DNA of 64,000 bases, taken from the NCBI RefSeq assembly GCF_000214375.1, contig NC_015578.1, forward strand, positions 1,550,001-1,614,000, read 5' to 3'. The translations under genes and the position numbers were made by a program. Under the pieces are notes generated by a model. That model saw nothing but the letters and a program-made list of their open reading frames with translations. It was not told where the DNA came from and ran no database searches. Positions 38,617 through 47,813 of the stretch are shown one piece after another (position 1 is the stretch's first letter; each line of letters begins with the position of its first letter). The DNA is from Treponema primitia ZAS-2. GTDB lineage: Bacteria > Spirochaetota > Spirochaetia > Treponematales > Breznakiellaceae.

Positions 38617-39042
38617 AGCGGGAAACGGGAGTCGGACCCGCGCCATGCGTCGCTAACGCTCCGCGTGTCGATAGGAATGGATTGAAGGTCCGACTCCCGC
38701 CTCTAAACCGCTCTAAAGCCTTCTAGCGGGAAACGGGAGTCGGACCCGCGCCATGCGTCGCTACGCTCCGCGTGTCGATAGGAATGGATTGAAGGTCCGA
38801 CTCCCGCCTATACCGCTTAAGAACACTTTGAGCGGGAAACGGGAGTCGGACCCGCGCCATGCGTCGCTACGCTCCGCGTGTCGATAGGAATGGATTGAAA
38901 GTCCGACTCCCGCCTCTAAACCGCTTAAAACACTTTGAGCGGGAAACGGGAGTCGGACCCGCGCCATGCGTCGCTACGCTCCGCGTGTCGATAGGAATGG
39001 ATTAAAGGTCCGACTCCCGCCTATACCGCCCTAAAGCTTTCT
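38617..39042. repeat. Four ~107-bp repeats carrying the 3' end of tRNA-Gly
   Basis: Units begin at 38617, 38725, 38831 and 38938, with the intact tRNA-Gly at 39043 in the same register (spacings 108, 106, 107, 105). Read on the minus strand, each unit has GCGGGAGTCGGACC, about 44 bases with ACGCGGAGCG...CGACGCATGG, then the tRNA-Gly T-arm and acceptor 3' strand including the last base. The first segment is the reverse complement of the T-arm. The short protein-like ORFs here (MARVRLPFPA) are repeat artefacts. Confidence 0.9.
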
Positions 39043-39114
39043 AGCGGGAAACGGGAGTCGGACCCGCGACATCGACCTTGGCAAGGTCGCGCTCTACCAC
39101 TGAGCTATTCCCGC
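39043..39114 (-). tRNA. tRNA-Gly (anticodon GCC)
   Basis: 72 bases. Acceptor GCGGGAA pairs with TTCCCGC, with T as discriminator. The D-arm is GCTCAGTGGTAGAGC, the anticodon arm CGACC-TTGCCAA-GGTCG, and the T-arm GCGGG-TCCGACT-CCCGT. CCA is not encoded. An identical gene lies at 47005. Confidence 0.97.
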
Positions 39115-46316: not shown

Positions 46317-46317
46317 A

Positions 46318-46337
46318 TACGAGAGAAGGGACTTGAA
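46318..46337. other. Right attachment site (attR) in tRNA-Leu
   Basis: A 20-bp repeat identical to 39182-39201, made of the acceptor end and part of the T-arm of tRNA-Leu, so integration leaves the tRNA whole. Confidence 0.85.
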
Positions 46338-46398
46338 CCCTTAAGCCAAAGGCACCAGATCCTAAGTCTGGCGTGTCTACCAATTTCACCACTCTCGC
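46318..46398 (-). tRNA. tRNA-Leu (anticodon TAG)
   Basis: 81 bases. Acceptor GCGAGAG pairs with CTCTCGT (one G-T pair), with A as discriminator. The anticodon arm is CCAGA-CTTAGGA-TCTGG, and the variable arm is the short leucine type. The T-arm is AAGGG-TTCAAGT-CCCTT. The 3' end is the attachment site of the element. Confidence 0.95.
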
Positions 46399-46444
46399 AT
46401 TGTTTTGTGAATTTTACCGGAAACAGGGGAGGGTGTCAATTAAA

Positions 46445-47004
46445 CACGTCGCTGTGCTCCGCGTGTCGATAGGAATGGATTGAATGGTCCGACTCCCGCC
46501 ATTGACGGCGGTATAAAAAACTAGCCCGGAAATGTCGAATTTCCAGGCTTTTCATACACTTATGAGCGGGAAACGGGAGTTGGACCCGCGCCATGCGTCG
46601 CTGCGCTCCGCGTGTCGATAGGAATGGATTGTATGTCCGACTCCCGCTATTAATGGCGGTATGAAAAATAAGCCTGGAAATTTAACATTTCCAGGCTTAT
46701 TTTTCATAAAAGCGGGAAACGGGAGTCGGACCCGCGCCATGCGTCGCTGCGCTCCGCGTGTCGATAGGAATGGATTGTATGTCCGACTCCCGCTATTGAT
46801 GGTGGTATAAAAAAACAGCCCGGAAATTTAACATTTCCAGGCTTTTCATACACCTATGAGCGGGAAACGGGAGTCGGACCCGCGCCATGCGTCGCTGTGC
46901 TCCGCGTGTCGATAGGAATGGATTGAAGGTCCGACTCCCGCCATTGACGGCGGTATGAAAAATAAGCCTGGAAATTTAACATTTCCAGGCTTTTTATTTA
47001 TAAA
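46445..47004. repeat. ~147-bp repeats with tRNA-Gly 3' ends and terminators
   Basis: Full units begin at 46565, 46711 and 46859, with the intact tRNA-Gly at 47005 in register (146, 148, 146 bases); a fourth unit starting near 46445 lacks the tRNA-derived arm. Each unit has the same anti-T-arm plus tRNA 3' end as the array at 38617. It also carries a hairpin of the type AGCCTGGAAAT-TTAAC-ATTTCCAGGCT beside A/T runs, which looks like an intrinsic terminator. Confidence 0.9.
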
Positions 47005-47076
47005 AGCGGGAAACGGGAGTCGGACCCGCGACATCGACCTTGGCAAGGTCGCGCTCTACCACTGAGCTATTCCCGC
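47005..47076 (-). tRNA. tRNA-Gly (anticodon GCC), second copy
   Basis: 72 bases, identical to the gene at 39043-39114. Its 3' side runs straight into the 147-bp repeat array. Confidence 0.97.
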
Positions 47077-47110: not shown

Positions 47111-47111
47111 A

Positions 47112-47184
47112 TGAGCCGCCCGAGGATCGAACTCAGGACCCGCAGATTAAGAGTCTGCTGCTCTACCAGCTGAGCTAGCGGCCC
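47112..47184 (-). tRNA. tRNA-Lys (anticodon CTT)
   Basis: 73 bases. Acceptor GGGCCGC pairs with GCGGCTC, with A as discriminator. The D-arm is GCTCAGCTGGTAGAGC, the anticodon arm GCAGA-CTCTTAA-TCTGC, and the T-arm CTGAG-TTCGATC-CTCGG. It is followed in transcription by tRNA-Gly after 35 bases. Confidence 0.96.
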
Positions 47185-47322
47185 AAAAATACAAAAACAC
47201 CCACAAGGAGCCTGTTATGCCGCCTGAAAGATGTTTTTCTAATTTATAGGAAAGGGCGAAAGTCGTCAAGCCCCCTTTTCAAATGATAGGGCTATATTAA
47301 AACAAGTTCTATTTCCCTATTC

Positions 47323-47600
47323 TGCGTCCGGCAGGACTCGCCCTCCGGCCTTCGACGTCCTGTCTCAGGCCTCCGGGCCGGGGTTGAACCCTGACGGCGC
47401 CATCCATGGCGCCTTTTCCTCCCTTTGGTCGGCGGGTTCAACCCTTCGAGTCCTGCCCTAATGCGTCCGGCAGGACTCGCCCTCCGGCCTTCGACATCCT
47501 GTCTCAGGCCTCCGGGCCGGGGTTGAACCCTGACGGCGCCATCCATGGCGCCTTTTCCTCCCTTTGGTCGGCGGGTTCAACCCTTCGAGTCCTGCCCTAA
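47323..47600. repeat. Two 139-bp repeats carrying the 3' end of tRNA-Arg
   Basis: Units begin at 47323 and 47462, with tRNA-Arg at 47601 in register (139 and 139 bases). Read on the minus strand, each has GGGCAGGACTCG, an inner pair GGGTTGAACCC and GGGTTCAACCC, the palindrome GGCGCCAT-CC-ATGGCGCC, and then CGAGTCCTGCCGGACGCA, which is the tRNA's 3' end. The ORFs seen here on both strands are artefacts of the repeat. Confidence 0.9.
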
Positions 47601-47674
47601 TGCGTCCGGCAGGACTCGAACCTGCTACCTACGGATTCGAAGTCCGTCGCTCTATCCACGTGAGCTACGAACGC
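47601..47674 (-). tRNA. tRNA-Arg (anticodon TCG)
   Basis: 74 bases. Acceptor GCGTTCG pairs with CGGACGC (one T-G pair), with A as discriminator. The anticodon arm is ACGGA-CTTCGAA-TCCGT and the T-arm GCAGG-TTCGAGT-CCTGC. Its 3' side opens into the 139-bp repeats. Confidence 0.95.
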
Positions 47675-47813
47675 ATAACTGGCTGTGACAGCGTATCAGC
47701 AGCCAGAATCCAGCATATAATACTGTTAATAAGATGATTATATCAGGTTATACGATTTTATCAAGGCTTATGGTGTCGCATATCATCAAAGGGTGAATAG
47801 CGCCATCAAGCCT

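Follow-up and report, generated by a model that had tools for sequence, protein, structure and literature searches.

What kind of element lies directly behind a tRNA gene and ends in a copy of that gene's own 3' end? The closest described systems are the tRNA-linked repeats (TLRs) of Escherichia coli, which were first described in 1978 and for which, as of 2021, no function was known except in the case of RrA/B/F (PMC8144298). They sit just downstream of a tRNA or rRNA gene, share their last 18-19 bp with the 3' end of that gene and occur in 1-5 copies per locus (PMC8144298); among them are RtT (Rfam RF00391) behind tyrT/tyrV and RrA/RrB/RrF behind 5S rRNA. RrB, placed between two terminators in rrnB (T1-RrB-T2), has five GGA motifs, two of them in loops, and binds CsrA in vitro via its GGA motifs, with modest phenotypes (PMC8144298). 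The word 'inverted' does not occur in the text of PMC8144298; in the E. coli stretches analysed here, an inverted tail copy is present in the tyr, arg and lysV TLRs and closes a helix, as it does in the spirochaetal units. In E. coli K-12, the genes argV-argY-argZ-argQ (L201:1785-3147), with TLRs that possess the inverted tail copy, lie beside csrA with only serV between.

The units that follow tRNA genes in Treponema primitia ZAS-2 and its relatives resemble these TLRs in placement, with a same-strand tRNA directly upstream in 117 of 129 units (30 anticodons), in their tail, with a median of 18 nt, and in number, with 1 to 4 copies per locus in the T. primitia genome. Several of the remaining 12 units lie near contig ends or next to a tRNA fragment. 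Unlike the E. coli TLRs, the spirochaetal family has one conserved branched fold and is spread over at least 30 anticodons as well as tmRNA, with as many as about 20 copies in a genome. RF00391 matched the E. coli units only and none of the spirochaetal ones, while our models R1 and R2 gave no significant match on ten E. coli stretches, the best for R2 being RrB at 9.9 bits and E=1.0. By architecture the units are TLRs, and may either share descent with those of E. coli or have converged on the same design.

Other RNAs share single features with the units. The CsrA-sequestering CsrB/CsrC and RsmX/Y/Z sRNAs of Gammaproteobacteria present several GGA motifs in hairpin loops, as do the units, for which titration of CsrA is presumed; they are free-standing genes, whereas the units accompany tRNA genes at many separate loci. 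The CAGGANG loop of the units resembles that of CsrB. The Rfam models of CsrB/CsrC/RsmX/Y/Z gave no match at the units, the one weak CsrC match falling outside the unit of its stretch (L230), and a search of Rfam returned no family that matches the units. The clostridial TwoAYGGAY RNA (RF01731), described in PMC4333381 as a CsrA binder predicted from sequence, with two AYGGAY hairpin loops and tandem GA pairs, has the two-loop design in common with the units; its description there makes no mention of tRNA linkage or of a tRNA-derived stem, and the RF01731 model did not match the units at E up to 5, 0.5 or 1. A functional RNA cut from the 3' trailer of a tRNA transcript is known in 3'ETS-leuZ of E. 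coli (cited in PMC8144298) which, unlike the units, pairs with other sRNAs and has no repeat with a copied tRNA tail. Group I/II introns and the known self-cleaving ribozymes were dropped on general knowledge of these classes, as the units are too short and the known cores were not recognised in them.

The tRNA-Arg locus and its neighbours

The window, a stretch of 64,000 nt, contains on its minus strand a cluster in the order tRNA-Arg, two units, tRNA-Lys, tRNA-Gly, Gly units and tRNA-Leu, and a further tRNA-Gly copy with an array of its own:

47600-47675, minus: tRNA-Arg, anticodon TCG (ARAGORN and Rfam RF00005), source of the 18-nt tail
47462-47600, minus: Arg unit 1 (R1, 151.4 bits), with linker TTA, inverted T-arm copy 47586-47597, core and tail copy 47462-47479
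47540-47547, minus: P4 hairpin loop CATGGATG of Arg unit 1, CsrA-type CANGGANG; in unit 2 at 47401-47408
47495-47501, minus: P6 hairpin loop CAGGATG of Arg unit 1, CsrA-type CAGGANG; in unit 2 CAGGACG at 47356-47362
47323-47461, minus: Arg unit 2 (R1, 149.9 bits), with inverted copy 47447-47458, core and tail copy 47323-47340
47111-47185, minus: tRNA-Lys (CTT), downstream in the same cluster, without a unit
47005-47076, minus: tRNA-Gly (GCC) copy 2
46954-47002, minus: terminator-like hairpin (inverted repeats) between tRNA-Gly copy 2 and the first Gly unit; similar ones at 46806-46844, 46660-46708 and 46512-46550
46430-47004, minus: Gly-type array of four units, the last one decayed; exact tails 46859-46879 and 46711-46731, inverted copies at 46929, 46781, 46635 and 46487
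46317-46399, minus: tRNA-Leu (TAG), end of the cluster, without a unit
39043-39114, minus: tRNA-Gly (GCC) copy 1
38617-39042, minus: Gly-type array of four units; exact tails at 38938, 38831, 38725 and 38617, inverted copies at 39008, 38901, 38795 and 38688

On the minus strand, tRNA-Arg(TCG) is followed by TTA, unit 1 and unit 2. The preliminary description of two 139-bp units that end in the tail of the tRNA and begin with its complement was borne out, with one mismatch and exact copies of 18 nt: each unit starts with GGGCAGGACTCG, the complement of the T-arm of tRNA-Arg(TCG), and ends in CGAGTCCTGCCGGACGCA, the last 18 nt of that tRNA, and the two units, of 139 bp each, differ solely at 47357 (G/A). 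For an 18-mer tail, about 2e-6 chance matches are expected in the window. Also upheld was the dissimilarity of the Arg core from the Gly cores, since a genome search with the Arg region retrieved neither Gly array. It did retrieve diverged copies behind six other tRNAs: 12 of its 13 secondary matches fall at tRNA loci, three of them reflecting tRNA-to-tRNA similarity and nine lying behind those six tRNAs, while a single 33-nt match (2171258) has no tRNA near.

The Gly-type core is also found behind tRNA-Gly in two relatives from other genera (G050 and G022). The Gly(GCC) cores have one GGA triloop and lack the CsrA signature, which is likewise absent from the Pro(CGG) and Ala(GGC) cores. These three kinds of core show no sequence relationship but are built like the Arg type, so that at least four core types share one architecture. 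Both tRNA-Gly(GCC) genes (39043-39114 and 47005-47076, minus strand) and all copies of their tail have the T-loop T-C-C-G-A, with C at position 55, where U is nearly universal; G050 and G022 share this T-loop.

A branched fold with CsrA-type loops

In the fold of the Arg-type unit, the inverted copy and the tail pair as P1, which is followed by P2 with the internal P3 and the hairpin P4, and then by P5-P6. P3 has the form CC-GA-CC/GG-GA-GG, and the P5-P6 arm contains GA-rich internal loops. In alignment A1, which comprises twelve units of this genome and underlies covariance model R1, 32 of the 44 pairs changed on both sides, with a covariation score of 0.561 against 0.180 after shuffling. Alignment A2, with 129 units from this genome and its relatives, was fitted to the structure of R1, which favours that structure; here double-sided change was seen in 41 of 44 pairs, and the score was 0.629 against 0.160 when shuffled and no more than 0.10 when the structure was slid. 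When single units were folded without constraint, the result agreed with the R1 structure, and this agreement as well as the size of the effect is independent of the fitting of A2. Pairs of G-U outnumber A-C by about 2 to 1, and a hairpin acting as single-stranded DNA was set aside on these counts, which favour RNA only mildly. We conclude that the units are a real and widespread structured RNA attached to tRNA genes.

The loops carry the most conserved positions of the units. The sequence is CANGGANG in the P4 loop and CAGGANG in the P6 loop, and GGA is conserved in 98-100%; part of this conservation was selected by the search, because the models were built from the same sequences and carry the loop letters. 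Occurrences of CA(N)GGANG average 1.67 per core against 0.11 in shuffles, with at least one in 115 of 117 units and two or more in 79. The signature of CsrA/RsmE is (A/U)CANGGANG(U/A), and the loops resemble the E. coli CsrA SELEX motif RUACARGGAUGU (PMC6692469, PMC4894983). The genome encodes one CsrA, next to fliW, which is 48% identical to that of E. coli and retains L4, R6, V42 and R44.

Among 197 genomes of the order, 113 have both units and csrA, 11 units only, 51 csrA only and 22 neither (Fisher p=2.6e-4, for genomes that are not independent of each other). In one family (f4), units are present in 11 of 11 csrA-positive and in 0 of 9 csrA-negative genomes, a correlation that may reflect one or a few events. 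The 11 unit-bearing genomes in which no CsrA match was found are all multi-contig drafts, one of them (G259) 99% complete, and many CsrA-bearing relatives, among them G034, G037, G040, G045 and drafts of the same genus, have no units.

Since the same tail architecture occurs with cores that lack the CsrA signature, it is not bound to CsrA; that it carries more than one kind of core is the main reason why a TLR should not be equated with a CsrA sponge. For the Arg-type units, we consider it probable that they are spirochaetal TLRs acting as read-through trailer RNAs that titrate CsrA, with the binding of CsrA predicted from their sequence.

Spread of the units and how they may have arisen

Stretches around all 50 tRNA genes of the genome, a single contig of 4,059,867 bp, were scanned, and together with the model this placed units at 16 of the 50 genes and remnants at four more (Phe, Glu(TTC), Asn and Ser(CGA)). 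A tail copy with its inverted copy is found at Ser(GCT), Ser(GGA), Pro(CGG), Glu(CTC), Gln(CTG), Met and twice Gly(GCC), and further at Arg(TCG), Gln(TTG), Trp, Ala(GGC), Gly(CCC), Pro(TGG) and Thr(CGT); for Arg(TCT), the scan gave a tail copy and the model detected the unit. The Arg-type fold was recovered behind 12 other tRNAs of the genome. Within the wider group, R1 matched in 35 of 59 near relatives and in 27 of 247 genomes across the phylum, and R2 in 124 of 197 genomes of the order. Thus, the generality that the preliminary description had proposed from two tRNAs is strongly supported by the scan of all tRNAs, in this genome and across the order. Its claim of an independent origin at these two tRNAs holds in part: the Arg-type core proved to be one homologous family behind many tRNAs, whereas the Gly(GCC), Pro(CGG) and Ala(GGC) cores are indeed unrelated by sequence. 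That the pieces make up a single folded RNA with CsrA-type loops, and that the TLRs of E. coli are a known counterpart, goes beyond what was noted there.

When the exact pattern was run against GTDB species genomes, it was found on 29 contigs, named Treponema or Spirochaetaceae and in many cases from metagenome-assembled genomes; all carry spirochaetal names save two metagenome-assembled genomes named Betaproteobacteria and Deltaproteobacteria. The latter (G294; L220, L238-L249) has many units, several of them in the vicinity of tRNA-Ser, Glu, SeC, Val, Asn and Leu genes, and represents either an occurrence across phyla or a case of misnaming or misbinning. Units with the gene's own tail are not confined to tRNA genes: in Treponema sp. 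C6A8, one with the tail of tmRNA follows tmRNA after a terminator-like hairpin (L230:3928-4073), and another lies behind tmRNA in an uncultured Treponema genome (L218:1572-1707).

Some loci of the T. primitia genome deviate from the simple order. The intact tRNA-Leu(CAG) gene has no unit; 44 kb downstream of it, an intact unit follows a tRNA-Leu fragment that has the same tail (G000:C1:3414866-3459082; L054, L063), probably the result of an island inserted into the tRNA. At Pro(TGG) (L033), the P6 hairpin of the unit harbours a second, nested unit that lacks a tRNA tail, and cores can therefore insert away from a tRNA end. Three copies of tRNA-Leu(GAG), the middle one degenerate (31 bits), lie about 1.1 kb apart at G000:C1:1311409-1313698 (L051).

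In a tree of 94 cores, host genome required 64 changes against 75 when shuffled, host family 24 against 36.4, and anticodon 65 against 75.7, with none of 300 shuffles as low. It follows that units are retained at particular tRNAs and that they also spread, or become homogenised, within a genome. Among relatives, the unit at tRNA-Trp/secE ranges from intact (filled) to truncated and decayed; a clean empty site that would fix the insertion boundary was not found among them, and in one relative (G021) a direct repeat reaches about 13 nt beyond the end of the tRNA, which is what tandem duplication would produce.

Could the units be a selfish mobile element, in the form of a short hairpin that targets the T-loop/3' end of tRNA genes and relies on a recombinase supplied in trans, so that the tail is the duplicated attachment site and the folded P1 the recombination site? 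The copied block, from about t56 to t73 and with a median of 18 nt, would fit. Many tRNA integration sites span a similar block from T-loop to 3' end. Tandem copies, the nested copy at Pro(TGG), the repeat beyond the tRNA end in G021 and the clustering of cores by genome as well as by anticodon point the same way. However, no recombinase gene is present within units of about 140 bp, and simple site-specific insertion would not account for the joint change of both arms at every tRNA; the units hold the strand of the tRNA, the ratio of G-U to A-C is mildly in favour of RNA, and it is the loop letters that are most conserved, so that we regard a mobile element as unlikely.

The tie to the host tRNA allows a different view. 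Exact matches of the tail to its own tRNA have a median of 18 nt (117 units), against 2.9 nt to other tRNAs, and the sequence of P1 changes with the host tRNA. Over t56-t73, the tail is 0.87-1.00 identical to the tRNA in the 98 placeable units; at t66-t73 it stays identical although the inverted copy pairs there in only 31-67% of these units, which suggests that P1 is not the only reason why the tail is kept. Terminator-like hairpins, which recall the T1-RrB-T2 arrangement of E. coli rrnB, are present in 44 of 80 linkers of at least 20 nt and in 63 of 1000 control stretches (6.3%). In the minimum-energy fold of tRNA plus unit, the 5' acceptor strand of the tRNA is placed on the distal tail in 70 of 89 loci. 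This predicted fold is better by a median of 5.4 kcal/mol, a small margin for this method, which takes no account of co-transcriptional folding or tRNA modification.

These observations could mean that the units work in cis on the maturation of the tRNA, as a trailer device for processing, quality control or attenuation that switches between proximal and distal tail, with the GGA loops incidental or bound by another protein. The conservation of t66-t73 despite frequent lack of pairing, the preference for the distal tail and the architecture common to several core types would agree with this. But most tRNAs of the genome have no unit, close relatives lack units entirely, the energy difference is subject to the reservations given above, and the near-invariant GGA of the loops would go unexplained; we hold such a role to be quite improbable. 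A functionless by-product of replication, through tandem duplication, template switching at T-arms and gene conversion, could account for tandem arrays, truncated last copies and decayed remnants, but it is scarcely tenable, being contradicted by compensatory change in the inner helices P2 and P4-P6, which are independent of the tRNA, and by unpaired letters conserved in more than 100 genomes. Chance or a duplication confined to two loci is ruled out by the units at 16 of 50 tRNAs, the matches to the own tail and the compensatory changes.

A candidate link between tRNA synthesis and CsrA

How would CsrA-titrating trailer RNAs, the reading we favour, work? Transcription would run from a tRNA gene, or in some cases a tmRNA gene, into the unit as its 3' trailer, and read-through past the tRNA and the frequent terminator-like hairpin would lead to the release of the unit as a stable RNA. 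The two GGA loops of one unit could then hold a CsrA dimer, and with many units behind many tRNA genes, CsrA would be titrated in proportion to the synthesis of tRNA. Retention of the exact tRNA tail is probably due to its use both as a strand of P1 and as a 3' processing signal. The tail would also permit a second fold, of the 5' half of the tRNA with the distal tail, and this could either favour or impede release of the unit. Once established at a tRNA, units would be inherited vertically and duplicated in tandem. On reaching a new host tRNA, an element would have to acquire the tail of that tRNA on one arm and its complement on the other.

That the same architecture recurs in another phylum, with a conserved fold, re-matched stems and two CsrA loops, argues for TLRs as functional RNAs. 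Our literature search found no description of a CsrA-sequestering RNA in spirochaetes. A broader reading, which we put forward tentatively and hold to be possible but doubtful, is that of a class of CsrA-titrating RNAs residing on tRNA transcription units in more than one phylum, with the closing stem rebuilt from the tail of the host, the rate of tRNA synthesis converted into a CsrA signal, and a switch between proximal and distal folds controlling release of the trailer; the TLRs of E. coli would then be another branch of this class or a case of convergence. For the spirochaetes themselves, the loops and placement of the units suggest a link between tRNA transcription and CsrA activity, and thus provide a concrete candidate by which the transcription of stable RNA may be connected to CsrA.
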